Origin: Romanomermis culicivorax | Lineage: Eukaryota > Nematoda > Enoplea > Mermithida > Mermithidae | Length of the DNA stretch: 64,000 bases | Direction of reading: 5' to 3' | Assembly: GCA_963922205.1 (NCBI GenBank) | Contig: CAWUHX010000033.1 | Span: forward strand, 1,116,001-1,180,000 | Shown here: piece by piece, positions 32,060 to 59,300 of the stretch | Layout of the letters: each line of letters starts with the position of its first letter | Numbering within the stretch: position 1 is the first letter of the stretch | Notes under the pieces: model-generated | What the model was told of the DNA's origin: nothing | The model's input: the letters and a program-made list of their open reading frames with translations, nothing else | The model's database searches: none | Position numbers and translations under genes: made by a program

Positions 32060-32285
32060 TAAAAACGGTCTATTCCCAAGCGAACGATTCCCAACTGAGC
32101 GATTACCATGTGAGCGATTTCCAGTTGAGTGAATTCCCAATCGAGCGATTCCCATGTGAGTGATTGATTGAGCGAAATCCCAAATGAGCGAATTCTCAAT
32201 TGGGCGATTCCCATGTGAGCAATTCCCAATTGAGCGAATTCCCAAATGAGCGAATTCTCAATTGAGCGATTCCGAACGAGCAATA
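32060..32285. repeat. Minisatellite of about 15 bp, left arm of an inverted pair
   Basis: About 14 imperfect units close to ATTCCCAATTGAGCG. The last units and the sequence just after them reappear in inverse orientation at 47840-47890, on the far side of the LTR element. The two arms therefore look like the termini of an older element into which the retroelement inserted. Confidence 0.7.
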
Positions 32286-32447: not shown

Positions 32448-32451
32448 TTGT
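32448..32451. repeat. Target-site duplication TTGT, left
   Basis: TTGT directly precedes the first base of the 5' LTR and is repeated at 47545-47548 directly after the 3' LTR. A 4-bp duplication fits a Ty3/gypsy integrase. Confidence 0.8.
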
Positions 32452-33894
32452 TGTCACGTGCCGCTCAATTCTCCAACGTCACGTGATTCCGATCATGTCG
32501 ACATTTTGTTATTTTTCATGTTTCGTTTATTACTCGATCATGCTTTTGTTTATTTCATTTTTAAACATGCATTTTGTGTTCGTTTTTATATTTTTATGCA
32601 TTTCTATGTTTCGTTTTGTTGTATTTTTATTTCTTTACAAACGCGGGCTACAGTAGGCCCTTTAGCTAAAAACTTCCGCCAGTCGTGCTCCACGAGCACA
32701 TGGCTATTTTTGGTGCGCTCACGCACCTCTTATCATCAAAAATTAGCGTCGTTTTTGTTACGCAAAACGACTAGCTAAGAAGTTTTAGCTAAAGACGTTC
32801 ATATGCTTAGCATAGGCACTGCAGCCGGCCTCAGTGCTAAACGCATGTGAATGAAAAAATGTCTATGTGCTCATAGGCATCTACTGCATCGCGTCTAGCT
32901 GCAGAAGTTAGCTTGAGCGCCGAGAAACTCCGCCCAAGCTGCAGCTGTAGCCAAACATGTCCTTAAAAGGACATGTTTCTTTAGTTTTTCGCTCATTCTT
33001 GGGTTCACCAAGCTTTCATCCGGTTGTCACCCGCGTCCGCCGCCCTGCTCAATTTGCATATTTTTATATACTTGACTGCGTCCGCGGCCTATTATTTTAA
33101 ATAAATTTGCATACCCTTGCATCTCTTACTGCGTCCGCTGCTCACCGCTTACAGTACCCTGCTGCCCATCAGTGCCAGGTGTCCGACCGCCCCGGTTCGT
33201 GAATTAAACGTTGGAGTTTCGCCTCCCGCTCGCTCCCGCTCCCTCCCGCTCGCCGCCGCTCGCCGCCTAGGACGTTTGAGGATCGCATCCCCCGCTCCCA
33301 GTGCCAGAAGACCGAAAGCATCCAGGGACTTGCCGCCCGTTGCGTCGTAATCGCTTGAGAAACAGGACTAGGTGAGTCTTCTCAGGGGATTATTGTTATT
33401 TGTGGGTTATTTGTTGGGAAATCCTTCCTAAGTCGGTTTCCCAAGGTTCCCACAGATAAGTAGGGCCTCCACCTCTCGGGTTCAGGTTAAAGGGGCTGTC
33501 TGGTTCATAATCGGGTCCCATAATTTAGGTCATTTTACGGGTGACCCTGTCCCCACTCTCACTGAGTAGGACTCGGGGATTGTTGCACCTAGCCTGGCAG
33601 CGTTGTCCGTTACCCTACAGCAAGACCCCAAGGACAACACAAGAGAACCAACTATAGACCTCTCTATAGCCACCATTTGCCAGGTTAGGCCCCAACGCCA
33701 ACTTGGGAAGCCTGGGGAAAATGCCAGTATCCATCAGGAGTCACAGCCTATTACTCACTGTAATAGGATCAATCTGATATGGTTCACCATCAATGTGACG
33801 TCTAAAACACGGTATTACCTGATGAGATACCCAAACCTCCCCAGCTCTCCCAAGATAAACCTGTCATACACGTGACATGGCGTAAAATGTGACA
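32452..33894 (+). repeat. 5' LTR
   Basis: 1443 bp, TGTCAC...GTGACA. Visible promoter-like parts: two octamer-type ATTTGCAT sites (33052-33059, 33105-33112), TATATA at 33065-33070, AATAAA at 33100-33105, and repeated GCGTCCGC. A near-perfect palindrome around AACATGTCCTT/AAGGACATGTT sits at 32953-32978. The 3' copy at 46102-47544 is nearly identical. Confidence 0.95.
33052..33112 (+). promoter_or_regulatory. LTR core promoter candidate: TATA box between two octamer sites
   Basis: ATTTGCAT (the complement of the POU octamer ATGCAAAT) occurs at 33052-33059 and 33105-33112, with TATATA at 33065-33070 and a GCGTCCGC element between. The arrangement is conserved in the other LTR. Motif-based inference. 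Confidence 0.45.
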
Positions 33895-33912
33895 TGGCGA
33901 GGCTGGAAAATC
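33895..33912 (+). other. Candidate primer-binding site
   Basis: The 18 bases directly after the 5' LTR begin TGGCGAGGCTGG. TGG is the complement of the tRNA CCA end, and zero spacing to the LTR is common in Ty3/gypsy elements. The matching tRNA was not identified from memory. Confidence 0.55.
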
Positions 33913-33956
33913 GACCTTAAGTCTGGCACTCGCCCTTAAGTGTAAAACCTTCACCC

Positions 33957-34250
33957 TTGGGTCGGAACTACCCCCAGGTCGGGTCAATTCCAATTTTAAG
34001 TCGGACAAGCCCCCTTAAAATTGGGCACTAGCCATCCAATAAGTCGGAGACCCCCCAGATTCGGGTTTACTGCCTAATGGGTCGGGAATGTCCCTTATTT
34101 CGGATTACCGCTACTGTAGGTCGGATACCTCCCCTCACGTCGCGTATTCTTACTGTAAGTCGGAAATTTTTTCCCGTGCCACCGAGAGTTATTACTGTAG
34201 GTCGGGAATTTCTCCCTGAACATCAGATTTAATTACTGTAAAACGGGATT
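33957..34250 (+). repeat. Tandem array with 40-bp period (TACTGTAGGTCGGGA units)
   Basis: GTCGG-containing units fall at about 33957, 33976, 33997, 34042, 34082, 34119, 34159 and 34199, settling into a period close to 40 bp. The best units read TTACTGTAGGTCGGGAATTT. They diverge from each other at many positions, so the array is older than this insertion. Confidence 0.7.
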
Positions 34251-35053
34251 TGCCCTTACGAGTGATCTAAATGTGACCTATATGTGTAAATAATTATCTC
34301 CTGCGTGTGTATTATCCCCTACTAGTAATAAATTCCCCCTGAGTCGAGTTATTTATCCCCAGAGTCGTGTTATTTGTCCCAGAGTTGAGTTATATATCGA
34401 GTATTCTGTATTTCTCCTCTGATTCATTCTGTACATTCTGCATAATTAATCTGTGTTGTAAACTACCTTATCTGTTTCTTTTCCCTCATTCCCCCCCTTC
34501 CCTAATCCTGGGTGGTATACTGTAGCCCTCCGGGTGGGTGCCATTACAGTACGCCTGTGCCCATTCCCGTACTGTAACTACAGTATACCCATACGCGGGT
34601 ACTGGTATCACAGCTGTAGGGGTTTACGGCCTCTCCTGACTGTTGGTGGTCCGTGACCCCATGATACCGTACACCCTCCACGTATGATTCTGGACGTCAT
34701 ACGTGGCTGCGATTTGTTAATTGTGTACAGTATTTTTGTCTGTCGGCGGAAACTGTCGGAATTGCTCACTTTTCCGGCCCCAAAATTTTACACCGACTGT
34801 TTACACATTTAACACGCATATGCCCAACTCTCGTATTCCCCGTCTTCGGTTGTTCCCTTTCCCTTTTCCTTTCTCGGTCATCTGAGCGGTGTCAAAAAAA
34901 AAAAAAAAATTTCTGTTTTTCTAATGCCACCGCTACAGTATGACACCCTTACGTAAGTTCCTCTATCTTTTTCATTTCTACTTACTGTAAGGTCTGATTC
35001 TTCCATTCTCAGGTTGTTGCATCTAGACCATAGACTTTACGGGTCATGCTCTT

Positions 35054-35760
35054 TGACGTCAGAAACGACAACGTTACGGGTTGTTGTTGTTGTGTGGTTC
35101 AACCCCACGGATGCAACCACTGACGTCTGCAACAGCCCCTTCACTTGCTGTTGCTTTAAGGGGTGGGTAGCCCTCCGGGTTCTACTCCTGACGTCAGCAA
35201 CCGACATTACGTGTTGTTGTTTAAGTTAACACTCCAGCAGTAATGACTTCTGACGTCTGCAACAAGTGAAGCCAACGTTGTTGCAACAGGTTCGGCTGGT
35301 TCTCTGCACCCCATCTGTGACGTCAGCAATGGTGACGCACCGTGTCACTATTCAAAGATGTGCAGGTCTTACGGGTGCCACATCTGACGTCTGCAACAAC
35401 TGCATCTCATGTCATTGACTTAAGGTATCAGACCCTCGGTTCCACCTTTTGACGTCAGCAACGGCACCATCACGTGTTGCCGTATACCGATAGCTGGCTT
35501 CAGGGCCCTATTGCTGACGTCAGCAATGACAATGTATCATGTTCTCGCAGTAGGAGTTGAGACTACATGATCCTATTCCTGACGTTCGCAACGGTAACAT
35601 TACGTGCTACTGCAGGGGTTCTGTCGGCCTTAGGCACGCACCCCTGGCATCTGCAACTGCGACATGATACTTGAATACTCTTATCCCAGGCACCTGCAGT
35701 CAGCACCAAGGTCATGTGTTGGTTCATACCCCTACCTTTTGACGTCCGCACCAGGTTACT
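35054..35760 (+). repeat. Tandem array of about 66-bp units with CRE-like TGACGTCAGCAA cores
   Basis: Cores start at 35054, 35121, 35189, 35251, 35318, 35385, 35450, 35515, 35580, 35645 (degenerate) and 35740, a spacing of 62-68 bases except the last. The first six alternate TGACGTCAG and TGACGTCTG, suggesting a two-unit higher-order repeat. An isolated core lies at 36081. Between cores, GTTGTTGTT and CACGTG-like stretches recur. TGACGTCA is the CREB/ATF site. Confidence 0.85.
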
Positions 35761-37530
35761 GTCGGCCCTATGAGTATTCCACTTGAGTTGTAGGTGGTCG
35801 CTGGCGTATGGCCCCTATCACCTACCTCTCTTGTCCAAGGGTTTGTGTGTGTCTGGGGACTGATGCCTGGGAAACATCAGTCCACATACATACACCACCT
35901 GAGATGCTGACTAGCCTGCGTACTGATCAGGTTGTCCGCCCGGGTAGCGGCACTGTTGATCAGCACGTGGCTGTTTTCAAGCTTTAACTGCAGGTTTGAA
36001 CGAGTTACACTCGGCCTCAGCTGGGTTGGTTGTCTGACTCGGGCAGACAGCAGGCATTTGCAGTCGGTACTGCCTGTGTCTGACGTCTGCAAGGGTTCGG
36101 CAATCTTCTTGTAAATTTCTTATCTAAATTTACTCATTCTCTTTCATCTCATCGAGCTGTCATACATAGATCTTCTTTAGTGTCCCCGCCGTAGTGGTTC
36201 CCAAGGGACCGCGGCACAGCCTCCGGTTGGGCCTAGAGTGTATAGGACCCCCTGTCATATTACATTCACTCGAACGCCTTCGTTAACTGGCTTAACGATG
36301 CCCGCGCTAGAGTCGCCACTGACCCAGAGTCCGCCTCCGCGGTCCACCCTCTATTAGTCATGTAAGTAATAGGCACCGTTGAGTCCGCCTCAGCGAAGGT
36401 ATTGGGTACGCCTCGATACATACTTTACACTCATATTCAATCAGGGACACCTTGTACCCGTGATCCCTTAGATGTTTTCGGGTGCGCCCTCAAAACATCC
36501 AGAGTATTTCATTTTAACTGACTGAGTGTGTCAGAATAGCACCCTTGGTACCCGTGCTCCTTCCCTCTTCTACTGTGTGACCTGCGAACCTCACTTCATC
36601 TCAGTGATCGGCAAACCCGGCCACCAGCTGTGTATAATACTCCTGGAGAGTGTCCATTCTGTTCGGAATGCGGACTCCCGTTTCGGACACGGCTGTAAGT
36701 TACTTGCGAATGTCGTCCAACACGGAACGTCCTGTATAGTCCGTCTCACTATGCAGAGATCGCAATCGCTCCTGGCGAGTGAGGCCCGTTGCGTAACTGC
36801 GCGACCCCCTTTGCGTAACTGGGTTTGTAAATTAGTTTTGTCCCTATTTATTGCTCCCTCTTAAGTTCATTTTCAGTTGACCCCATCCTTTCCACCTCAT
36901 GCCACTTTATGCGCTACTCCTGGTGAGTAGGATCTTGCCGGCTACGAGTCCGCCTCGCCCCAAGGTTTGTAAACTAGTACAGCGGTCGAACCTCCAGGAA
37001 AAATCCCTCCTGAGCGGGTTTATCCGTCACCTTATTTCTCGGCAGGAAAACCGCCTCTTCTCTCCTTTTCCACATGATCTTCTGTCTTCTTCATCTATTC
37101 TAATTGCCGGGTCCAGGCCCCAATCCTACATTTTGGTCGGGATCGATTCCCCCATATCTCAGGCCATGCCTCTGTCCATCACGGGCGACCAGATAAATTC
37201 CCTTCTGCGTCACCCTGATGTACTCTGATCTTACATCTTATAATCCTATTCCATTCTAGCTCCCTTTCCGTGGTCGCTAGTCTTAAGCTAAATCAATTTA
37301 CGTCACAAACGCCGTCGCGCACGCGTTTTCCGAATTCACGCGCTCTTTCGCCGCGAATTCAAAAGTAGTACTCACTTTCATTTTACACAATAGAGACACC
37401 CCGTCGTTCCTGCCGTCTCAGTACCCAGCCTGTACAGACCAGTGAGCCGCTCTCTATTCAATTTGACTTAATTGCTTCACGGGCAAGGACGTCTGTTCTA
37501 ACCACCTTACGGGAAAACGAACCCTCGGAC

Positions 37531-40059
37531 ATGAAGTCGGAAGCTGATCTCCCTTCACAGATCGAGAACAAAGTCCAGGCAGCATTTGAGAATGCCCTTG
37601 GACCCCTCAACCAAAAGTTAGAGGCCATGAATGGTCGGAGGCACCCTCCCGTGTCCAGCTTTATGGCCCCTCCCACCTTCTCCGGTGCTTTTGGTGAGTC
37701 TATCACCGATTTTATGTCGCATCTTACTCGTTTCTTTACACTCCAGGGTGTAAGCGAAACGGATCATGCATATAAAATCGCTTTTCTGGAGTCATGCCTC
37801 ACGGGTCCTGCTCTCGCCTCCTACCGGGACTTTAGCAGCAGCACTCCAATACCTACCCGCTACGAAGAGTTTACGGCTTTTCTACGGAGAGATTTTCCGG
37901 TAGGGCGCGACTCTGATCTGCATCAGCAGCTGATCCAAGATCGACTGCAGAAGCCGACAGAGTCCGCGATAGTCTACCTTGAGCACCTCAAGAGACTATC
38001 CAGGGTAGCGTATCCAGATCTCGCGACGGATGTCCGAGATTCTATCATCAAACCTATCTTTCTGCGGGGACTGAAGCCGGTCCTCCGAGATAGTATCAAG
38101 TTTAGGGAGTTCACGACTCTTGAAGAGACACTCAAGGCAGCCTGTTACGCAGAATCCCAAATCTTTCGGGACGAGATCCGGTACACTGCTCCATCTAACG
38201 CCGTTTTCTCTTCAGAACCTAAACACGCCGGATATAATCCCGATATGCCTAACAGAAGCGCAAACGGTCGTCAGAGCAACGCTCCAACGTCATCATCCTC
38301 CGCCGATGAGGTTCGCCGCTTGAAACAGGAAATGGCCAGGCTCACGGCCCACGTAGCGAAGCTCACGGCCCAGCAACGTGCACCCGGGCCAATCCAACAG
38401 ACGCCGCCTCCACAGCCGTCGACACCAAATCAGTCCGCCGGGCGACGCTCGTCGGGAGCACACCTTCAAACGTGCTCCTTCCACGGACTGTGTACACATA
38501 GCGACGCCGACTGCCGGGCCCAGCGTCCCACCGGTGCCGCTCCCGGTAACAACGCTGCTAACGGTGGTCGCTGTTATTTTTGCCGTACACGTGCCCACCC
38601 CACGGACCGATGTGATAGGCCATGCCCTCATTGTCGTCAAGTGCGAGTGCACCGATCAACTGCCTGTCCGCAGCGCAATCCGGCAAACACGGGTGAGAAT
38701 GTCTACCAAAATACTGGTTATTCTTCCCAGGGGACAAATGTGTATCATCAAAGAAATGGTTATCACCCTCCCAACGGGATAGGAAACCAATATCGGCAGC
38801 CCATACGCCGCAACAACGCTGTTGGGGCTACCGATGGCCCTCCTCATCCAGATCCTCTTGACCTGGATGATGAGGCACTTGCTGAACACCTGACAGATTC
38901 TTCACAACAGTGTTATCCTGTCTGCGTAATCAGTATTGGATTTTCAGTGGTCCAAGCAGCCCAGGTACCCGTACCGATAAACGTATCGGACATACCGCTG
39001 CCACCACAACCACCAAAGTATGCGATGCCGGTCACTCTGGACCCCTCGACGACACCGCAGTTTGTTGGCCACGCTAACATCCTCGCATCGTATCGCATTC
39101 CTAAAATTAAGACTGCCGAGCCAGCTCCAGCCGCGAATACGACGTCTTCGGCGCCACCGGCCCGCATCGTCCCTCCAGGACCACCGCCTTCGATCCCCAC
39201 GGATTCGGCTACGGAAGTCCTCGACCAGGTCGAGCCGATGAATTTGTCAGGTATACTACCTTCTTCTTCAGGTGATCCTAGAGTAGGAACCAGGAATCTA
39301 TCTCAGTCCACGACTCTATCGATTTCTTGTTCACAGCGCCATCGCCCGTCCAAGACGCGATGTTGGCCATCTGGTCAGTCGACCTGGCCAAGAAATACCC
39401 GCATTTGCCGTGGACTCTGCTCAACGAGCCATCGAATGTCGAAGCGCTCACGGCCTGCAGCACCCGTCTCAATGGGCCTCTTACGACCCGACGTCGCCCG
39501 ACGGGCACTCGAGTTCATTGCCAATGGGACTATCACCATCTCGCCCGTCGAGAAGTTCTTATTGGATGGGGAGCCATCCTCGCCTTCAGTCGATGCCGTC
39601 CGCCGTGCAGTCGAACAGGCCAGTCGGATCCTCCTGCCTGCTGCCGCCGCTACATCACCGGCAGCAGCGCCACCTGTTGCCGCGACATCGCCAACAAAAA
39701 TGGACATTACTGCTTCCTCGCCCCCGGCCAAGGAACCCGCAAATGATCCTACACCGCCGGCAACAGCCCAACATACATCGTCGGCAACAGCCCAGGTTAA
39801 ATCGCCGGCACCAGCCCAAATGACATCTCCGACCGCTGCGACCAAGTCACCCGTCGTCAAACACATGGCCGTCGACGAGACATTACGTCCGGTTAACGAA
39901 GATGTCAGCATCGTTGAGGAATCCCCGTTCCCAACGGCAGTCGCCCCACGGTCGCCAAAAATCGGTATCCTCCGGGAAATCCACCCGTGCGGTGGATTGG
40001 TCCTCGATTTCCCCGGCCAGGAACCAATCTCGTCCGACAGCGACGAAGAAGAAATCTGA
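37531..40059 (+). CDS. gag: Gag polyprotein of the LTR retroelement
   Basis: 842 codons from an ATG. Residues about 55-205 form a Ty3/gypsy capsid-type domain (FLSHL-like helix region, [41 protein letters not shown]). A cysteine-histidine cluster follows: a CX5-6C knuckle-like segment at 315-328, a CCHC knuckle C348-X2-C351-X4-H356-X4-C361, and a second CX2CX5HX4C at 365-379, for nucleic-acid binding. The remainder is Pro/Ala-rich and ends acidic (SDSDEEEI). The envelope-like frame starts at 39902 in another frame and overlaps the last 158 bases. In 39290-39480 an alternative frame looks more protein-like than the gag frame, hinting at two compensating indels. Confidence 0.92.
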
Positions 40060-42121
40060 CACTGCCCCTCAGGCCAGATTTGTGAAATTGAGTGAACACT
40101 TACAAATTACGTTTGTACAGTTGTTTTTGACAATAAAATTGACCTTGGTAGCATCACTGTTTCTAGGGGTGAGTTTGTCAGCACCGGCGGCTCAGTATCA
40201 ATTTTGCGGTCTCTCAAGAAGCGGACACCCACTTGAGTTACCCCAGCGTGTAGAGTGTAAACCACCGCAATCTTCATGGAGCCCGCGGCGCATGAATGTT
40301 ACGGTGTATGTCCCTAGCTCGGACCCGATCACAGCCACAGCGTGGAAATGCACATTGCGCTCCCGCAAAGTCTGCACCAACACTGGTTTCTTCGGCTCTA
40401 GGGGCATCACTGCAGACGTCATCACCACTCAGCACTTAGCGCCTGCGGCATGCACGCTAGCACATCGCACTAAGATGTTTGGTTCACAAAAACTTGTCGG
40501 CGTTCGCCCTGGCTTTTATAGCACAAACCAAACATTGGAAGTGATGTACGAATGGTGCTCCAACGACGTCTGCAAGACAGTGACTAACCTCTTCATCGAG
40601 GAGGGACAAGTCGCTTCGTGGGACGGCACTACGGCCCTAAGCACCTTAGGCGATGTAGGTGGATGCAGTCCCACTGCAGGCCAGTGCACTACTCTGGACG
40701 GGATCATTGTCTGGCCTGCACAAAACTTCACGGCGCGGTGTCATTATCACCCCAAGGGAAATTACACTACATCCATGTCAGGGAACCACGTCATCATCGA
40801 TGATCTGCAGGTTGCCCTTAAGATCCCGGGAAACTCCCGCGTCTTCCAACTGTGCCCAGAACTACGTTCCACCACAGTCCGGACGGATCAGGGTCTTCTC
40901 CTTCGCATCCACGGGAGATACAATTTGACCCAAAACTTGTTCAGAATGGCAACGGACAGCCGTCCCGATCCTGTCAATGCCAAACTGAACTATCTGGCTC
41001 AGCAGATCAAGGAGTCGGAAATTAACGGTTTCCGGTTCACGTGGCTTGAGCTCTGCTCTCACGCTCAACGCTATCTTGATCTGACTTGGCAGTTGCTTCG
41101 CTTCGACCCTACCCTGGGTGCCCGGGCATTCCTCCAGAGGAATGACCTGACGGCGGAATTCACAGGCGATGCGCTGACAATATGGCCGTGTCAGAAGGTC
41201 AACGCCACCTACGTTTACCACTCCTACCGGGTGGGGAACGTTTGCTACAAGTACTTACCTGTACAGGTTGGCGGCACCATCTACTTCGCCACCCCCGGTG
41301 GTCCGGATCTCATTAAATCTAGCCCAATTGTGCCGTGTCATCACCACTTTACAGGGATTTTCCGAAATCGCTCGGGCTGGTTTACTGAGTCTGGCGCGGT
41401 CCATGTGAGCCACATCCCACTGGAACTCTTCTGGAAGCAGCGTTTCAACATCACTCACTTTGAGGCACCGGCGCTCTTCCATGACCAGTTGGCGATGACC
41501 CCTTCAAACTTTGCCTTCTTTAAACAGTACGTTTACAAGACTGAGCAAATTGAAGCGGTATTAAACCGGCTGGTAAACTTTACCGCTGGTCTATCCCTGC
41601 AACCAGACGCCATCTACCAGGCCTTTGCAGGGGTAGGAACCGACATCAAGGCCTCTCTGGAAGGTGTCGGTTTGGCAGCAAACCATGTTATTACGGGTCA
41701 ACAACACACCCTCGCCCAGGGCTTGCATGCTGTCCTGAGCGGGCCGGTCCAGTTGATCTTTAACATCCTAATTACCCTGACAGTGCTGATCGGTGCCGGA
41801 TACCTTGCCTATCTTGGTGTATCTTATTATCTCAGCTACCGTCTGCGGAGCAAACAGGTCAGGTTTGTTAGCCGTTTCTCCCCGTTGGGTCTTTACCGTA
41901 AAGTCCAACGCTGGATCGGTTTTCACTACGTGCAAAACGATGTGCCCTCCCAGCTTGACCGAATCACACCGTGCTTGGTCGTGCTGCTGGACACCAAGGA
42001 AACCCCTGCTTTCCTTGACACGGGTTGCCCACGCACTATCATTAGCCAACGTCTTCATAAGGCCTTGGCTAAAGAAAGTCCGAAGGCAGGTCATGGCGTT
42101 CCAGCAACACCACGACTTTAA
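39902..42121 (+). CDS. Envelope-like glycoprotein fused to the start of the aspartic protease
   Basis: 739 codons. After a basic lead of about 66 residues, a hydrophobic signal-like segment (67-98) opens a Cys-rich ectodomain with many Asn-X-Ser/Thr sites. One membrane span lies at about 618-645, followed by a basic juxtamembrane stretch. The same frame then continues into a retropepsin start with catalytic [12 protein letters not shown] (Asp about 706). No stop separates them. In the ectodomain at about 380-500 the spacing of Trp, Cys, DP, AR, GD and YRV/CY residues recalls class III fusion proteins of the gB/chuvirus type; this is by pattern, not alignment. It would mediate membrane fusion at the surface or in endosomes. 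Its place between gag and protease is unlike errantiviruses, where env follows pol. The frame leaves the protease sequence near 42085. Confidence 0.8.
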
Positions 42122-42825
42122 CCCATTGATGAGCATCAATGGTAAAGCCGTTCATACCACCCTTTCGGGACCATATGAAATCGTGTTGCCCGGAAACCAC
42201 TAGCCGAACACACGGATCGATATACATCTCCATGTGTGCAAGACTACGTCTCCCTTCTGGGCACCTGTTGACCTCATACTCGGACTGGACTTCTTAGAAC
42301 AGTTCAAGAACATTATGTTTGACTACCAACGTAATGTTTGTCGGCTGGACACGGTAGAATTACCCCTCCTGCTGACCACGCCGGAGATTGACCAGATCGA
42401 CCCCTGGTGGGAGAACACCCGTGCTCTCTCGCGCAACGCACACAGGTCGGGATCACGATCGCAGTCCAGGGCTTCGTCCATCTCTCGGCCACACTCACGG
42501 GCCTCCTCAGTTGCCTCATCACGTGGGTCAACTAGGGGATCCAGGGCCTCTTCTAGACGGGCAAGTCGTCATCTGTCGACCTTGCACGGGTCAGGTTGCC
42601 CTCGACCTCCGCCTGGAACCTCTCCAGTTACGCTAGAGAAGGGCTGATACCGTGAGCCAAGTGATTCAGATGCTCCGGCATCACCCGTACCAAACGCGCC
42701 TCCGCTATCGGACACCGAGATTGAATCACTAGGAGCTACTCAGAGCCCAAAGGATCACTCAGACCACGTACTAACGGTGCAGGATGAGTCCACCCTTCTG
42801 AATGACCTGACTTCTGAATGAATTC
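42086..42825 (+). pseudogene. Rest of protease and RS-rich linker, interrupted
   Basis: After the frame change near 42085, the protease continues in another frame, with a TAG at 42201-42203 and the flap-side motif DLILGLDFL at about 42270. From about 42435 the product is an Arg/Ser-rich run of about 45 residues (SRSQSRASS-type repeats), then TGA at 42645-42647 and an acidic Ser/Pro linker ending near 42825. The reading frame changes again before RT. So the protease is split by one shift and one stop in this copy. Confidence 0.75.
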
Positions 42826-42828
42826 TGA

Positions 42829-45582
42829 ATTATTCGGCCCAGCACGTCTCCGTGGGCTACTAATACTGTCCTGGTGCGCAAGAAAAACGGTTCTCACCGT
42901 ATGTGTGTTGACTTTCGTGGTCTTAACGAGGTCACGAAAAAGGATGTCTACCCTCTCCCGCGGATAGATGACATCCTCGACACACTCAAGGGTATGAAGT
43001 ATTTCACTACCCTTGACCAGGCTAACGCTTATTGGTCAATCCCGATTGCCGAGGCGGATAAGGAAAAGACGGCTTTTAATTCGCCTATTGGACTTTACGA
43101 ATTCAATTATTTGCCTTTCGGTTTATGCAACGCGCCAGGGACATTTCAACGCCTTATGGACCTCCTCCTTACTGGAATCCAATGGCCCACGGTTCTGACT
43201 TATCTCGACGACATTTTGGTGTTCGGGAACTCTCACACCCAAATGCTTGAGCGCCTGGCAGATGTGTTCGCCCGTCTTCGCCGGGGTGGAATGAAGCTCA
43301 GACTGAGCAAGTGCAAATTCTCGCACTCAGAGGTAGAATACCTAGGCTATCGCATCTCACAGAGCGGCCTAGAACCTGACCAAGCCAAGCTGGCCGCCGT
43401 CCAAAACCTACCCATTCCACAAAACGCCAAAGACATCAAGTCCTTCCTAGGCCTCGTGTCTTACTACAGGCGTTTCATCCCTGGTTGTGCCCGGCTCAGC
43501 GAGCCACTCACCAAGCTCTTACGGAAGGAAACTACTTTCCAGTGGTCAAAACCTCAGCAGGAGGCGTTCGATGAACTCCGCCGCCTGCTGACCAACCCTC
43601 CTATCCTGCGCCATCCGGACTTTTCGAAATCCTTTATCCTTCAAACTGATGCGAGTATTTCGGGGATAGGAGCGGTTCTTAGCCAGTTAGACGAACATGG
43701 ATACGACCATCCTGTCGCGTACGCCAGCCGAGGGTTAACAGCGGCCGAGAAAAACTACTCCATTACAGAACTGGAAACTCTCGCTGTTGTCCATTTCGTC
43801 AAGCACTTTCGACCATACCTCTTCCAGCACGAGGTGGTCGTTCAGACTGACCATACCGCGGTCAAAGCAGTGTTGGAGAAGCCTAACCCCTCTGCTCGGA
43901 TCACTCGGTGGGGACTCGGGCTCGCTGAATTCAAACTGACAATTCGGCCGCGAAAAGGTCAGTCTAATGGTAATGCTGACGCATTATCACGCCTGCCGGA
44001 TCCTAACTCCCTCACCGGTCAGAGTATTGATGATACTCCCCTCTACAGACCTGAGGGGCACGTTATGATGATCACCGATGGTGCGCAGCACCTGGCGAGA
44101 TCAAGGACCTTGACCGATGGTGTGCAGCACCTGGCGCGTTCAAGTAATTCAGCACCGATCACTGTTGGCGCGGAGCGCCCGGTACGATCAGAGTCTTATG
44201 CCGAGATATCCGTCGGTGCGCAGCACCCCGACCTTTTCGCTGCTCAGCTGGAGGATCCGGAGTTAGCCGACATCATTCGCTCTCTTAAGCCTCTGGGCGA
44301 CCAGAATGATGTGCGAGGCTACCATCTGTTGGATAACGTTCTTCAGAAATGGACAGGCGAGTCCAATAAGATCGTCATACCCAGATCCATGGTTACTACC
44401 ATTATCCGGGCTCATCACGATGACATCTTAGCTGGACACTTCGGTGCTAAACGTACTGCGCGGCTCATTGCTCGCAGATACCACTGGCCCTCCCTCAGTC
44501 GGGATGTCAAGTCCTTCTGTCAGCGGTGTGATCTTTGCCAACGGAATAAGCCCGCTCGACAGAAAACCACTGCGACCCTGAAACCTATCACCATCACGGG
44601 ACCGTTTCACCGGGTAGGTGTCGACTGCATGGGACCAATGACCACTAGCGAAGCTGGCAACCGTTTCATCGTAGTCTTTATCGACTACTTTACGAAATGG
44701 GTCGAGGCTTTTGCTACTCCGGACATCACTGCGCACACCATAGCCCGGCTGTTTGTAACGCAAATTGTCTGCCGGCACGGGGCACCGCAGATTCTTCAGT
44801 CAGATCGTGGCACTGATTTCACATCAAAACTGATGACTGAGATCACTGCGATCTGCGCAACGAAGAAAATCCACTCTACCGCCTATCACCCGATGACCAA
44901 CGGCGAAGTGGAAAGAGCTAATCAGAGGCTAGCCACACGGCTACGTATGTATGTTCATCAAGGACATACCGATTGGGATGAACACCTACCATACGCTGTG
45001 TTTGCCGTCAATATCAGCATGAATGAGTCAACAGGGTACTCACCCTTTGAACTCATGTACGGTCGCACACCCATGCTCCCTGTTGATGCCGCGCTCTCAT
45101 TCAACCCTCCGGCCCATATCATTAATGTTTCCTCATATGATATGGAGGTCAAACGTCATTTCACGAATGCATTGACCTTAATCCAGAGTCGGATTGAGAA
45201 GGCACAGGAAGCCTATGCACGGTCATACGACCGGAAGGCACATGATGTCTCATACAAAGTAGGGGATCAGGTGCTCAAACTGCGCACCTCCAGCAAACGT
45301 GGACTCACTCCTAAATTGCTGCCCATCTACGATGGGCCCTACCTTGTCACAAGTGTGGCATATCCCAATGTCACACTTTGTCTCGAGATGGATCAGGAAG
45401 ACACTGTACATGTCAACCAGCTTCGACTTTACGTGTCCCCTGAACAACCGAGTGAAGCAGAGGATACACCTCCCACTTCACAGGCAACAGATTCGGCACC
45501 CTTATTGTATCCTTCAATAAGCCGGGACTTTACACCGAATCTGATTGACCCACATCTTGATGCAGAGGTCCCCGACCCGTAA
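42829..45582 (+). CDS. pol: Pol: reverse transcriptase, RNase H and integrase
   Basis: Open from just after a TGA at 42826. RT starts at IIRPS..SPWA, close to the usual finger-domain start, but the 30-40 residues normally before it are not recognisable. Numbering from 42874: LPFGLCNAPGTF, catalytic YLDD at 110-113; RNase H with Asp259, Glu301 and Asp326 and ending GNADALSRLP; a spacer with four QHLARS-like repeats (about 397-452); integrase zinc-binding HHCC (about 514-555); core triad Asp584, Asp644, Glu680 with exactly 35 residues between the last two; a GPY-type C-terminal module (YDGPYLV...VNQLRLYV). All catalytic residues are intact in this part. RT copies RNA primed by tRNA; integrase inserts with 4-bp staggering. 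Confidence 0.93.
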   Translation: MIRPSTSPWATNTVLVRKKNGSHRMCVDFRGLNEVTKKDVYPLPRIDDILDTLKGMKYFTTLDQANAYWSIPIAEADKEKTAFNSPIGLYEFNYLPFGLCNAPGTFQRLMDLLLTGIQWPTVLTYLDDILVFGNSHTQMLERLADVFARLRRGGMKLRLSKCKFSHSEVEYLGYRISQSGLEPDQAKLAAVQNLPIPQNAKDIKSFLGLVSYYRRFIPGCARLSEPLTKLLRKETTFQWSKPQQEAFDELRRLLTNPPILRHPDFSKSFILQTDASISGIGAVLSQLDEHGYDHPVAYASRGLTAAEKNYSITELETLAVVHFVKHFRPYLFQHEVVVQTDHTAVKAVLEKPNPSARITRWGLGLAEFKLTIRPRKGQSNGNADALSRLPDPNSLTGQSIDDTPLYRPEGHVMMITDGAQHLARSRTLTDGVQHLARSSNSAPITVGAERPVRSESYAEISVGAQHPDLFAAQLEDPELADIIRSLKPLGDQNDVRGYHLLDNVLQKWTGESNKIVIPRSMVTTIIRAHHDDILAGHFGAKRTARLIARRYHWPSLSRDVKSFCQRCDLCQRNKPARQKTTATLKPITITGPFHRVGVDCMGPMTTSEAGNRFIVVFIDYFTKWVEAFATPDITAHTIARLFVTQIVCRHGAPQILQSDRGTDFTSKLMTEITAICATKKIHSTAYHPMTNGEVERANQRLATRLRMYVHQGHTDWDEHLPYAVFAVNISMNESTGYSPFELMYGRTPMLPVDAALSFNPPAHIINVSSYDMEVKRHFTNALTLIQSRIEKAQEAYARSYDRKAHDVSYKVGDQVLKLRTSSKRGLTPKLLPIYDGPYLVTSVAYPNVTLCLEMDQEDTVHVNQLRLYVSPEQPSEAEDTPPTSQATDSAPLLYPSISRDFTPNLIDPHLDAEVPDP

Positions 45583-46101
45583 CTCAGGATGCATTCTCTT
45601 CACTGTCCCCGCTTACGGACGAGGACGTCCTTTTTCGAAGGACCGCCGTGCCCCTCACGAAGTATCCACTCTTGTCCATGCTGGATCTTAGCGGATAGAA
45701 GAGAGCGTTCAGCAACCTAAGCGTCACGCTTTAGGCACATCCTCACGCGATAGCCTACACCTCACTGGGTGCATCCTCTGCGATAGCCCGACAATCTGTA
45801 CCTCACTGGGCGCATCCTCTGCGATAGCCTACATCTGGCCCTGAAAATTTTTTCTTTTCTGTGTTCTAGACTGTCGCACAGGATATTCAATGTCGGCAAC
45901 TTCACGCATCAACAACCTCCGGTCACCATACCACCGAACGAATTACGATCAAAGAAGGCTTCATCCGCCGACAACCCAACGGACCTATTCGACCACTCCC
46001 GCCGTCACACCTTGGAATGACCTACGACCACGGACACGTCATACAAAACCTCACTACTGACCACTGCAAGGACGAGGACGCCCTTTTTCGAAGGACCGCC
46101 G
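45583..46101 (+). other. Retroelement 3' region with internal repeats
   Basis: No coding frame. Three copies of GCGATAGCC with CTCACTGGG-type spacers lie at 45745-45830. A 34-base stretch around GAGGACGNCCTTTTTCGAAGG directly before the 3' LTR is duplicated at about 45617-45650. A conventional long purine tract is missing next to the LTR; GAAGGACCGCCG is the nearest candidate for the plus-strand primer. Confidence 0.6.
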
Positions 46102-47544
46102 TGTCACGTGCCGCTCAATTCTCCAACGTCACGTGATTCCGATCATGTCGACATTTTGTTATTTTTCATGTTTCGTTTATTACTCGATCATGCTTTTGTT
46201 TATTTCATTTTTACACATGCATTTTGTGTTCGTTTTTATATTTTTATGCATTTCTATGTTTCGTTTTGTTGTATTTTTATTTCTTTACAAACGCGGGCTA
46301 CAGTAGGCCCTTTAGCTAAAAACTTCCGCCAGTCGTGCTCCACGAGCACATGGCTATTTTTGGTGCGCTCACGCACCTCTTATCATCAAAAATTAGCGTC
46401 GTTTTTGTTACGCAAAACGACTAGCTAAGAAGTTTTAGCTAAAGACGTTCATATGCTTAGCATAGGCACTGCAGCCGGCCTCAGTGCTAAACGCATGTGA
46501 ATGAAAAAATGTCTATGTGCTCATAGGCATCTTCTGCATCGCGTCTAGCTGCAGAAGTTAGCTTGAGCACCGAGAAACTCCGCCCAAGCTGCAGCTGTAG
46601 CCAAACATGTCCTTAAAAGGACATGTTTCTTTAGTTTTTCGCTCATTCTTGGGTTCACCAAGCTTTCGTCCGGTTGTCACCCGCGTCCGCCGCCCTGCTC
46701 AATTTGCATATTTTTATATACTTGACTGCGTCCGCCACCTATTATTTTAAATAAATTTGCATACCCTTGCATCTCTTACTGCGTCCGCCGCTCACCGCTT
46801 ATAGTACCCTGCTGCCCATCAGTGCCAGGTGTCCAACCGCCCCGGTTCGTGAATTAAACGTTGGAGTTTCGCCTCCCGCTCGCTCCCGCTCCCTCCCGCT
46901 CGCCGCCGCTCGCCGCCTAGGACGTTTGAGGATCGCATCCCCCGCTCCCAGTGCCAGAAGACCGAAAGCATCCAGGGACTTGCCGCCCGTTGCGTCGTAA
47001 TCGCTTGAGAAACAGGACTAGGTGAGTCTTCTCAGGGGATTATTGTTATTTGTGGGTTATTTGTTGGGAAATCCTTCCTAAGTCGGTTTCCCAAGGTTCC
47101 CACAGATAAGTAGGGCCTCCACCTCTCGGGTTCAGGTTAAAGGGGCTGTCTGGTTCATAATCGGGTCCCATAATTTAGGTCATTTTACGGGTGACCCTGT
47201 CCCCACTCTCACTGAGTAGGACTCGGGGATTGTCGCACCTAGCCTGGCAGCGTTGTCCGTTACCCTACAGCAAGACCCCAAGGACAACACAAGAGAACCA
47301 ACTATAGACCTCTCTATAGCCACCATTTGCCAGGTTAGGCCCCAACGCCAACTTGGGAAGCCTGGGGAAAATGCCAGTATCCATCAGGAGTCACAGCCTA
47401 TTACTCACTGTAATAGGATCAATCTGATATGGTTCACCATCAATGTGACGTCTAAAACACGGTATTACCTGATGAGATACCCAAACCTCCCCAGCTCTCC
47501 CAAGATAAACCTGTCATACACGTGACATGGCGTAAAATGTGACA
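46102..47544 (+). repeat. 3' LTR
   Basis: 1443 bp, the same length as the 5' copy, with about ten single-base differences seen by eye. Ends GTGACA and is followed by the TTGT duplication at 47545-47548. Confidence 0.95.
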
Positions 47545-47548
47545 TTGT
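47545..47548. repeat. Target-site duplication TTGT, right
   Basis: Pairs with 32448-32451. Confidence 0.8.
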
Positions 47549-47900
47549 CATCTACTTTTTTCTATTTTGCTAATGAAACAATACATTACAAGTTGTCATT
47601 TTTAATAAGCATTGTCTCGCATGTAATTGTTACACAATTCGGCACTCTCTATTTCCTATTTAATTTTACCCTTTGTGATTTTTTCTTCATTCTTATCTAC
47701 TTTTCATCTTCGTTTTTTGCTTTTACTTCTTTATTTTTTTCTATTCTCCCGATTCTTTCTTTTTTTGTTCTTTTTCACATTATTATTTCTTTCCCTTTTT
47801 TGAAGTTTGAAATTTCAAGAAAGTGTTATTACATTCTCGATCACTCGTTTGGAATCACCCAATTGGGAATTCGCTCAATCGGGAATCACATCAGAATACC
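47549..47900. repeat. Right part of the older element hosting the LTR insertion
   Basis: A T-rich stretch like that left of the 5' LTR, then at 47821-47890 an inverted version of the minisatellite arm (CCCAATTGGGAATTCGCTCAA). It has about three units against about fourteen on the left. Confidence 0.6.
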
Positions 47901-48452: not shown

Positions 48453-51162
48453 TTACTGCGATTTTGTGGCGTCGATAGCTCGCGATTTCAACCCCCTAAT
48501 AGTCAAGTCGTAAACGACTTCTTCAACTTTCTTGACGTCGTATTTCAAAGCGTCGAAACGTTTTCGTAGATTATCGTTTTTCAAATTCAGCAAGCGAAAA
48601 CCGGAATCCAAATCGCTCAAAAATTCGGCAATTTTGAACGGGCGTTCATAATCACCGGACGTAACGCAATTTATGGAAAATCGGGCCTTAAAAATATTGT
48701 ATACCATAAGAAACTTGGATAGGTACATTTTTTCGAACTGATCATCGCGATCATCTATGCATATAATCATCGATTTTTTAAAATAAAAATTGTTCATGTG
48801 AATGACGAAATGCAAAATAAGAATAAGTATTGTTGGATTCATTTTATCATCTATATATTTTCTTTCTCATATATTCTCTATGTTCACTGTTAACAATGTT
48901 TGAAAAATTGTGCCGTTTTTGAAATAAATCGAGTGAACTTCATATACGTGTTTGTATCAAAAATCAGATCGCAAAATCCCCTCCAGAATCCAAAAAGACG
49001 AAAACTTGAACCAAGAAAAGATAATAGATAAGTTGATAATCACGAACTTGTATTTAATCTATAGATCATCAATGAATAATCAAGAGATTTTCTAAAAATT
49101 TTAAATATATTTTCATCCTTGACTCTCAAAGCCAATTCATATTTTTTGCATCTGCAGCGCGCATCAAAGAAAGAATCTTTATGTATTGCGATCATTTTTG
49201 CGAAAATTTTGAACAAATTATCAACGAATTCAAACTAAACTGGGAGATTATTTTTAGTAATTGCCAACTTTACTCAAGACTAGAGATTGGAGTGATCCAA
49301 GGTTTTTGTGACCAGATCTCAAGCTTCCACAATATCAAATCTGGTGAAAATTTGAGCTTGTACCGGATCCGGGGTCCGGAAATTGCAGCGATTGTAATCT
49401 CCAAATCTACGCCACATCCCCAATCAAGACGATGTTCTACTAGTTAAACAGCTAATTACTAACCAACTCACAAGTTCTGTTGACAAGGTCAATACACTGA
49501 ATAAATAGTCGTCGAGATCCAAATGGAAGCCTTGTTTCTGATCCGCTTTCACTGAAAAACAAACACTTTATATAGACGTGAGCATAATGCACGTGGTAGG
49601 TTTGGGGAGTATTGATCCCTAGCAGATTTTGGTTGACACTCCGCAGATTCTTGCCGACCCACAACAGATTCTATACCTCTGCATTGATCGAGAAAATGAA
49701 AGAAAAATAAGCAAGAGAGAAGAGGAAGTCGACATAAGAATGAAAATGATGATGTAGTTTGGCGATTTTTCTAAACAATGCATATCTAATTCTAGAGTTG
49801 TAACTTTAAAACTTTAAAACGTCCCGACCAAGGAAATAATCTCACTATTTGACTAATATAGATTGGAGAATATGCGGGAATATGCTACTTAAATGTTAGA
49901 AGTTATTAATGAGGAAAAAAATTCTATTCCACTCCCTGTCCTTGCTGACCCTCAGCAGAATATGATGTTTTGTGTTATACACATATAGGAAGATATAAAT
50001 AAAATCATCTATTTTGGAATTCACAAGAAAATTGAAACATTCTTGTCTTTAGCTTTAAAATTTGCTCTTGAAATTTATATTATTCAGTCAACAATTATAT
50101 ATAACTTAAATATGGAAATGAAAAACTTATTTATAATACTCCGAGCGATATTCACGGAAGCTCAAACTCAACCGTTAGAGTGCTTCCCGAAAATCACTCA
50201 ACTTTCTATCCGAAGTTCACTTGGAAAAAATGACATAGCATGATTTTTTGTACGTTTATCCAAATCTCTCACCGCCAATAAAAGCCGCAGCTTCTTCCAA
50301 GCTAATCATTTGATTCGACTCCAAATATTTGATCATCGCAGCCAAATAAGCCAAACGTTGATTTAAAAATCGAAAATGATCATTATACCTATAAAACGCC
50401 GTTGTAGATTTATCGCACGTTGGGGAACAAATACTTAAAAAGTACTTGAAATATTCATTTTCTGGAACAAGCGCAGTTAATTTACAATAATCCGTGCGAA
50501 TAGCATCGAAAGCTTCTTTAGCTTTTTGGCATATTTCTATGACTAAAAATATACATACATTGAATTCGGAACTAAAAAGGTCAAAAACCAATAAAGGGTG
50601 ATCATCATATTTTGTAAAATCAATAAAAATACCCTGTTTATTCCCATTCGACTGATGTACTTTTTGCAAAATTGTTACAATATCGCGGGATTTTTGATCC
50701 AATAGTCGAACGACTTCTCGTATTTGCTAAAATTAATAACATTTCTTATCGATTCGAGTTGACAATTGATCTCGAATGAGTTCATTTTGTATTCCAACAT
50801 TTTTTACATCTCCAGAATTAATTTTTCTGAGTTCAAGGATGACGTGATCGATGACATGACTTCGTTTGAAGCCGAATGATTTTTCACTTCTAATTTTCAT
50901 GCTTTACTACGCACTCATGAAACGGAATTATAAAAAGATTCGAGTGGCGAGCTTTGATGAAAATGACGTTTTTCACAGACATTAATTTTTCTCCGGCGTT
51001 CTAGAATGGCTGACTATGATTCTAAAGCCACGTTTTGGAAGATAGAGCGTCAAACTAACGGCGATGTTCAAGACATGTTGTGATCCGGAATCAAGATCTT
51101 ACATCGCGACGTTGCTGCTCTTGCTCCATTTCTTCTTTGAACGACGAGAAGATCGTTTCCAT
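48453..51162 (-). CDS. tsn: Translin, single-strand nucleic-acid-binding protein
   Basis: Six exons join in phase leftwards: 51103-51162, 50633-50726, 50446-50542, 50273-50388, 49472-49551 and 48453-48686, giving 226 residues, close to the usual 228. Family landmarks in order: METIFSSFKEEME..., QIREVVRLLDQKSRDI..LQKVHQ, YNDHFRFLNQRLAYLAA, GFHLDLDDYLFSVL, TSGDYERP, and SGFRLLNLKND.LRKRFD.LKYDVKKVEEVVYDL. Translin forms an octamer and, with TRAX, the C3PO complex that removes passenger strands in RNAi and handles tRNA fragments. A TTTATTTCAG acceptor lies about 33 bases before the ATG. CDC26 lies about 300 bases upstream on the same strand. Confidence 0.95.
49581..49980. mobile_element. Diverged CATACATGCAC-family MITE in translin intron 4
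   Basis: Left end near CATAATGCACGTGG, followed by three CAGATT-type repeats (GATCCCTAGCAGATTTT and similar) and a body matching 9960-10100. The right terminus is eroded. It lies in the intron between translin exons 4 and 5. Confidence 0.6.
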
Positions 51163-56346: not shown

Positions 56347-59300
56347 ATGAACCAATCAACCTCGCAATATTCTTTGATATGTAACGTTTCAAACAATATT
56401 GATACAAATGGTTTATTCCAACAATGGCCGAAAAACCTGACACCATCAAACTGTATTCCAAAACCTAGACCACAAAAGGATGATTTTATTGATATATTAA
56501 CGACGGGCTATTTATTCATCATTTTATTTATTATTGGCGTTTTGGGAAATTTACTGAACTTGATGGTTTTGAATACCAGACATATGAAATCAAAGACGAA
56601 TACGTTTCTTTCAGCCATGGCTTTGGCGGATTTGGCATTTTTCATCAGTAATTTGCCGAGATGTTTGAACACTTTCAAGTTTTTCGCATCTTCGCAAATT
56701 AGTAAAAAATATTACGTGAAAACTATGCCGTTATTTTTGATGGTCGGAAATGCTTTTTCATGCAGTTCGATATGGTAAGTTTTGGATATATATAGGATGC
56801 ATTGAATTGAATTTGGAATGAGACTAACAAGCATCAAGCAGGAGATGAGATGAGGGAGATCTTTTTCAGAAAATAATGATACGCGAATACTGAAACTATA
56901 CGAAATTTTGCTGAAATCCCAAGAAATCGTAGGCTAAAAATACCAGTTTGAATGGCCAAGTTGAAAAATCTTATTCATTGATCTAGTATCAACTAGCCCG
57001 GTGGGGATGGAGAACGAGTATTCCAGTGCACTACCCAGACAGAATCTGGCCCATTTTTCTGGCTCATTGGCCATTCGAAACCTAACCTGCAAGATATTTT
57101 TGAGGATTCGGACTAGGGTCTGTTCAGATTGTCATGGATCTGGATCCGGAGACCTGAAATGTTATGATGCTTTCAATCAGTTAAATAGTGTCTCAACCAG
57201 CTATAAAACAAAAATCATCAGCTAGAAATGATCATCTTTTATTGCCGGACAAAACAGCAAAAATCAAATCAATTTTGAACTCTAAACGGGCAATTAAAAT
57301 TCAAAATCAGGCAATCAACGGAAAACTAGGAGTCCTCAACCAGCAGGAACTTCCGCCATTGTCCAGCTGTACCTGAGCTGCCAGACCACAATCAGAATAT
57401 CCGTCCTGCTCCTGCACATCCTAATAACAGTAAATTGAGAAGAAAACAGGAAGAGTATGAATGGACTACAAACAACTGGAAAGTAAGTAATATTACATAA
57501 ATCAAAAAGACTGATTTGATTTTTCTGGAAAATTGTTTTCTTCTTTTGGAAACCTTGGAATTTGCACTAAATTCTGGAATTTTCGTATCACACAAGCTTT
57601 TGACATTCCAGTCGAACCTTTTTCATGCCAAAGATTATGGTTTTCTTTTTTGGCATTGTGCTAATAAGGTTGGGCTAGTGCTAATGAAAATTTTAGTCGT
57701 GGTAGTGTTTTTCTGTACAGTGCAGACTTTTTAGACTTCGTGCAGAATGTTTTTTTGTGATTTCTGCACTAGCGCCGAATTTCTTGAGTCATGTGTTTGA
57801 TCACATATATTCTCCTATTATGTGTCAGTCATTGAATCTGAAATTTTAAAATCATTTTTCTGATTTTAAAACTTTAAAATGTCTAGTCAAAAAACTATAA
57901 ATTCGTTCAAATTTAACATTGAATTACACATTTAATTTGCTTTTTTCCTATATTCACTATTATTGTGTCGTAACAGGCACTGTTTTCCCCCAAATCGTGT
58001 TTTTTTTTGGGGGGGGGGGAATTGGAGAAAGGAAAAAAAATTTTATGCCCTTTCCCCATTTGGGGAAGGAAATTCTGGAATTCGGATACAGAAAAGATGC
58101 ATTTTAGAAAGTCATAATCTCGAAAATTTCCGGCACTCCGCGCCGGTTATAACTTTAATAATCATTATTATGTATTACCTAGCTCAGGCGCCGCTTTTAA
58201 CATGTCTAACTTCACTTATCACTTAATCTATAGTAGTTTTCACCATCTTAAACGTATTATTTCACGTTTTAATTGGTAATCTTCAATATTTTATCTACAT
58301 TATTTAATGAAGATTCACATTTTTTCCTTGAGACACTTTTTGAGAAAGATCAATACGTCAAGTCTCTAAACTTTTTGAAGCGATTATTCCTTTCTTAACG
58401 TAAAACCAATTCAAAAGCTTCATGGAAGTGTTTTTCGGAAGGTTTCAAAATTTTTCAAATAATAAAATTATAGAAATTACGACTTTTGAGCACAAAATTC
58501 GAATCTAATTCTTGAAATAAATGTTCGGAAAATTGATTTTCCAGCGTCGCAGAATGTCAACACCAAAAAAAATTTTCCGGTGCTTCGCACCGGAAAGATT
58601 AACTTGTTTTTTTCGGCTCTCACTTGTCATCATAGAGGACTTTCCAGTGCTTCGCGCCAGAAAGACATATTTTTTCGGCTCTCACCTGTCATCACAGAGG
58701 ACTTTACCGTCGATTTCTCATGTAATTCAAAGTCATTATGCTATTGGACAGTTTGCCTGAAAATTTGTTCCACAATGCTTGCAGATTAGACTTCGATCAA
58801 ACTCGAAAATTTAAATTTTTTCCTCAATTTTAATGAATTAACGGCTCTAAAAACATCAGAAGATTTAAAAAAGCTCCCGGGGGGGGGAATTAGTGATAAG
58901 AGGAGAAAACCATAGTACAGAAACCTTTTTTGGCTTTTATGCACTGTGCAGAAAGCCGGGTGCAGAAAAAAATACTGTTATACAAATTGAGGGAAGTTAG
59001 CAACTGTGCTAATTAGTGCTTCACACCGGGTACCCGGCTATTTCGGGTACCCGGGTAGACCCGGGTGACCGGGTCAATTTTCTGAATGAAACCCGGGTGC
59101 TACCCGGGTACCCGGGTCTCAACAAGATATTGTATAAACGGAATATTTATATACTATTACTTGTATTTACGTGCAGTTACACTGAATGAACGTATTTTCT
59201 TTAATTAATTCAATGCATTTACCTGCTCAACGTGTTAACAAGATCGCTTATGCCTCTCAAAAAGTCACTGTAGCGTATTTTTAGCAACAAAAAATCTGTG

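Follow-up and report, generated by a model that had tools for sequence, protein, structure and literature searches.

Retroviruses are taught as gag-pol-env genomes in which env is expressed from a message of its own. An exception, called the first such case in the cited text, was described in 2019 for the planarian element Burro, where gag and pol are separated by an env that is in frame with them and the Env protein hits fusion glycoproteins of arthropod and fish mononegaviruses (PMC6431247). The first-pass annotation of the DNA considered here, a stretch of 64,000 nucleotides from the mermithid nematode Romanomermis culicivorax (assembly GCA_963922205.1, contig CAWUHX010000033.1, positions 1,116,001 to 1,180,000 of the forward strand; hereafter the window), had held that known env-bearing long terminal repeat (LTR) elements carry env downstream of pol, a generalization contradicted by Burro as there described; the order with env between gag and pol is therefore already published (PMC6431247). 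The window contains a retroelement of Ty3/Gypsy type, 15.1 kb long between its target duplications, in which env is located between gag and the protease. Its likeness to Burro, compared by description only, comprises a Gypsy-type pol, an env preceding the protease and Env hits of mononegavirus type, whereas Burro as described exceeds 30 kb and has MATH, BIR, ankyrin, BCL2 and dUTPase motifs and an ORF1 of 4,873 amino acids (aa) (PMC6431247).

Other elements share single traits with this locus. Anakin of mosquitoes is likewise an LTR element with a captured glycoprotein of Jingchuvirales type, but belongs to BEL/Pao rather than Ty3/Gypsy, and the cited text names the glycoprotein last among the parts without stating their order (PMC7642597). 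Another study is reported to have found no clear instance of Gypsy elements acquiring a glycoprotein of this type (PMC10084718). Atlas, a belpaovirus of nematodes, also has a stop-free polyprotein, but one in the order Gag-Pol-Env, and is described as a BEL/Pao element with a C-terminal Env of class II; the same source describes the env of Tas as weakly gB-like, of class III, the class assigned here to the window Env (PMC9094657). TelKA of bdelloid rotifers resembles the window element in carrying an Env from negative-strand RNA viruses within a retrovirus-like LTR element, but its protein is paramyxovirus F-like and is encoded by ORF3, downstream of pol, in the account cited (PMC5408684). Compared with Burro, the new aspects are the compact form lacking the accessory motifs, the recurrence of the order in several divergent relatives and the class III assignment, although other reports may exist. 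The placement of env between gag and protease is real and conserved, and is a compact variant of the published arrangement. The coding features of the element are as follows.

37531 to 40059, plus strand: gag, with a match to the Ty3-type capsid family PF19259 (E 2.5e-7) and two Cys-His knuckles (seen by eye)
39902 to 42121, plus strand: Env-protease frame of 739 aa, an open reading frame (ORF) with an ATG at 39902 and a match to PF24664
40121 to 40177, plus strand: signal-like hydrophobic segment of Env (residues 74-92)
40178 to 41752, plus strand: ectodomain of Env, a putative fusion glycoprotein assigned to class III from its family and fold matches
41753 to 41809, plus strand: membrane span of Env (residues 618-636), from hydropathy
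42017 to 42025, plus strand: retropepsin DTG motif in the Env frame (FLDTG, residues 704-708), about 70 residues past the span
about 42264 to 42371, plus strand: later protease portion (GLDFL), out of frame with Env
42829 to 45582, plus strand: frame of Ty3/Gypsy type for reverse transcriptase (RT), RNaseH and integrase, each matched in Pfam, open from 42829

As the first-pass annotation had proposed, one stop-free frame takes in the signal-like segment, the Cys-rich ectodomain and the membrane span and continues into the DTG motif. It is open for 765 codons (39824-42118), while the longest frame in 200 first-order Markov sequences modelled on 37531-45580 reached 365 codons. The ORF holds ten N-x-S/T sites, nine of which fall in the ectodomain, which also contains 15 Cys; the ORF is as the first-pass annotation had described it, the N-x-S/T sites being putative glycosylation sites. 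The start of the protease is recognized from the DTG motif and from two kinds of match. When the search was confined to 41700-43100, the region around DTG aligned with the proteases of two related proteins (P0002, E 0.005; P0005, E 0.006), and retropepsin-like structures were matched by a profile built from the alignment of seven proteins (A4; best E 1.2e-10). The Env frame holds no more than the initial part of the protease.

Six relatives (P0001 to P0006) were drawn from three protein searches, in two of which scoring was limited to the candidates with the most words in common. They were compared as protein sequences, and the searches took proteins of limited length, so that longer frames could be missed. 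Searches of viral contigs and of genome contigs confirmed no relative.

P0001, 1056 aa: Gag and Env joined in a single frame, which stops where the membrane span ends
P0002, 1079 aa: Env, protease and RT start in one frame
P0003, 536 aa: Env only
P0004, 323 aa: Env only
P0005, 1500 aa: Gag, Env, protease and RT start in one frame
P0006, 1643 aa: Env from its second half on, then protease, RT, RNaseH and integrase, all in a single frame

The window Env is 33-45% identical to those of the six relatives. Four of the six join Env to another domain of the element in one frame (33-37% Env identity to the window) and two consist of Env only. Fourteen of the 15 ectodomain Cys are Cys in every relative covering the column; the remaining one is Ser in P0005. 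The position of env between gag and protease, continuous with the start of the latter, recurs with the same neighbours in distant relatives: three of the four proteins that reach past the ectodomain (P0002, P0005 and P0006) continue in frame into the protease, and two of the four in which the start of Env is present (P0001, P0002, P0003 and P0005) are joined to Gag. The stretches from protease to RT of P0002, P0005 and P0006 align mutually (E 6e-41 to 8e-30). P0006 alone reaches the integrase, where its frame ends without a further Env. Identities of the linked domains run in step, being 43% for both Gag and Env between P0001 and P0005, 29% and 37% between the window and P0005, and 31% (Pol) and 33% (Env) between the window and P0006. 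A single, ancient acquisition of Env, followed by long co-inheritance with Gag and Pol, would give this pattern in the three pairs, while a recent swap of Env would not.

Env belongs, by family and predicted fold, to the class III fusogens of the kind known from negative-strand RNA viruses, and is a putative fusion protein. The family PF24664 (Monjiviricetes_fusion) matches the window frame above cut-off (E 3.6e-14), as it does all six relatives, and the predicted model, at a mean predicted local distance difference test score (pLDDT) of 53.7, has a gB/rhabdovirus-G-like fold. An Env of errantivirus type was rejected, Pfam and fold both indicating class III. Nor is the errantivirus layout, with env downstream of pol, found here, as env precedes the protease and no plus-strand ORF of at least 80 aa follows pol before the 3' LTR. 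The backbone is assigned to Ty3/Gypsy because the pol frame is closest to Ty3 structures, the best match among solved structures being Ty3 Gag-Pol (E 2.3e-117), followed by 4ol8 (E 1e-81), which we take to be Ty3 RT, 8r0s, an 'enzymatic polyprotein' (E 1.8e-52), and 7kse (E 5.4e-27), presumably a foamy virus enzyme. The order RT-RNaseH-integrase and the nearest solved RT, that of Ty3, agree with Ty3/Gypsy membership, a placement made from domain order and matches to structures.

Taken together, the element is probably an endogenous retrovirus of Ty3/Gypsy type, from a lineage carrying a class III fusogen between Gag and protease and translating it as part of a Gag-Env-Pro-Pol precursor. This reading is favoured because P0005 holds Gag, Env, protease and RT start in one frame. 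At the level of sequence, the domain order, the open frames of the relatives, the fusogen family, the two predicted hydrophobic segments and the damage in the window copy can be read off directly; from translation of such frames we infer a precursor that would cross the membrane twice. A ribosome translating P0005 would make Gag first and after it a hydrophobic signal, followed by the ectodomain of Env, another hydrophobic span, the protease and the start of RT. The internal hydrophobic segment following Gag would act as a signal, by which the ectodomain would enter the lumen of the endoplasmic reticulum, while Gag and the protease-polymerase would remain in the cytosol. Signal peptidase may then release Gag, and the retropepsin may later cut itself off the Env tail; Gag, Env and Pol would thereby reach the same membrane. 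An analogy is offered by the polyproteins of alphaviruses and flaviviruses, in which capsid and spikes reach the same membrane.

Several observations weigh against this reading. P0001 stops at the end of the membrane span, with no run-on of Env into the protease, and the Gag-Env-Pol polyprotein that the first-pass annotation had entertained, though favoured by the frame of P0005, is to that extent qualified. P0002 and P0003 begin with a Met immediately ahead of the signal, which means that in them Gag need not be joined. The gag and env of the window copy occupy different frames, the 3' end of gag overlapping the open env frame at 39824-40059. Pfam found no protease family in the frame 39902-42121 and none in P0002, and its protease matches in P0005 (E 1.2e-5) and P0006 (E 0.0058) fall short of the cut-off. 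The Gag of P0001 is matched above cut-off and that of P0005 is below it (E 0.0017), yet the two are 43% identical over Gag (E 1e-60). Finally, the Env model has the mean pLDDT of 53.7 given above, and its fold alignments show a large root mean square deviation.

One alternative is that Env is made, as in retroviruses, from a separate spliced or internally initiated message, with the continuity into the protease used occasionally or never. The window env, having a frame other than that of gag and an ATG of its own at 39902, would fit such expression, as would the start of P0002 and P0003 with Met and a signal-like segment and the end of P0001 after the membrane span. A separately made envelope would, however, need no open frame into the protease, and such a stop-free passage is present in P0002, P0005 and P0006, as is one from Gag to Env in P0001 and P0005; we regard this alternative as unlikely. 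Far less probable still is that the arrangement is a private product of recombination or decay in the window copy. This copy is indeed defective in protease and RT, and the stretch of gag at about 39330-39470 looks coding in another frame (judged by eye), but four relatives with 33-37% identity in Env join it to the same neighbours in one frame, by which a private rearrangement is disfavoured.

A different question, compatible with the favoured precursor, is whether the element belongs strictly to Burro, as a reduced member of that planarian family of giant elements, with only its size and domain content being new. The Env of gypsy is a class I protein. Burro likewise has env between gag and pol, a Gypsy-type pol and mononegavirus glycoprotein hits, but its Env is also likened to that of gypsy in the cited text (PMC6431247). 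In-frame placement between gag and pol is found here through the Env-protease frame of the window and the Gag-Env-protease frame of P0005, with the limit that gag and env do not share one frame in the window copy. The size of the element falls well below the more than 30 kb of Burro, and Pfam scans of the four coding frames, two of the eight leader ORFs and the six relatives detected no BCL2, MATH, BIR, dUTPase or ankyrin at cut-off; BH4, a Bcl-2 region, gave a chance-level match inside RT (E 0.095; 12.8 bits, where the cut-off is 20.5). Strict membership is possible, though less likely than not. The chances are nearly balanced, though slightly adverse, for the broader proposal of a distinct endogenous retrovirus lineage, wider than planarian Burro, in which a single precursor comprising Gag, a class III spike and the protease-polymerase would pass through the membrane two times. 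The protease would then form the spike's tail in the cytosol, incorporation of the envelope would be coupled to assembly and to activation of the protease, and no separate env message would be needed. If true, a lineage that conserves env within the precursor would represent a second genome plan, and would raise the question of how Gag and spike are proportioned when both are made one to one. It would also be a further example of class III fusogens of negative-strand RNA virus type carried by retroelements.

The window copy itself is defective, as the protease is split over frames and the beginning of RT could not be located. The later protease part matches P0002 (E 0.006) and P0005 (E 6e-4) outside the Env frame. 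RT begins at IIRPSTSPW directly after a stop, and the RT stretch preceding this motif in P0002, P0005 and P0006 has no better-than-chance match in any frame of the window. The overlap of gag and env may reflect a programmed shift, an internal start, splicing or simple decay; as the frames differ, an Env-protease product of this copy would need frameshifting, splicing or internal initiation, unless the split is itself decay. Between the protease region and RT lies a Ser/Arg-rich linker (42400-42640, within the ORF 42234-42647). In the relatives, P0002 (at about residue 1068) and P0005 (about 1489) both depart from the RT frame at one shared Lys/Arg run, shortly ahead of where the DG motif is expected, and this could be a shift site or an effect of assembly; P0006 reads through this run at the RT start.

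The boundaries of the element are given by the following features.

32448 to 32451: left target-site duplication TTGT, identical to 47545-47548
32452 to 33894, plus strand: 5' LTR of 1443 bp (TGTCACG...GTGACA), compared with the 3' LTR
33895 to 33906, plus strand: probable primer-binding site TGGCGAGGCTGG, a candidate that adjoins the 5' LTR and starts with TGG
33907 to 37530, plus strand: 5' leader of about 3.6 kb from the primer-binding site to gag
46102 to 47544, plus strand: 3' LTR of 1443 bp, compared with the 5' LTR
47545 to 47548: right target-site duplication TTGT, 4 bp

The TG...CA ends and the short duplication are those of Ty3/Gypsy elements (Metaviridae). The LTRs differ at 10 of 1443 positions (99.3% identical; seven of the ten are transitions), which shows a recent insertion and is not proof that the window copy could move by itself. 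The earlier proposal that this order was recently mobile thus retains the LTR identity in its favour, but is weakened because the copy is broken in protease and RT. No clear polypurine tract was seen by eye before the 3' LTR, and no plus-strand ORF of at least 80 aa lies between 45582 and that LTR, a region containing a 41-bp tandem repeat (45734-45833). The leader is unusually long, with a longest ORF of 112 aa, and the two longest of its eight ORFs had no match in Pfam. A tRNA search found none, nor did Rfam at gathering scores. The GC content is 47-54% in the four 4-kb blocks holding the element against 35-39% in the other twelve.

Immediately to the left of the element is a tandem repeat of about 15/46 bp (32087-32273), to which an inverted stretch right of the element (47810-47886) is related. 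Pieces of a translin-family gene lie on the minus strand at 48456-48842 and 50259-50702 (E 1e-25 and 1.5e-6), the nearer about 0.9 kb from the end of the element. Further on, a rhodopsin-type G protein-coupled receptor is found on the plus strand in two pieces about 3.2 kb apart, that at 59975-60868 above cut-off for 7tm_1 and Srw and that at 56347-56775 below.
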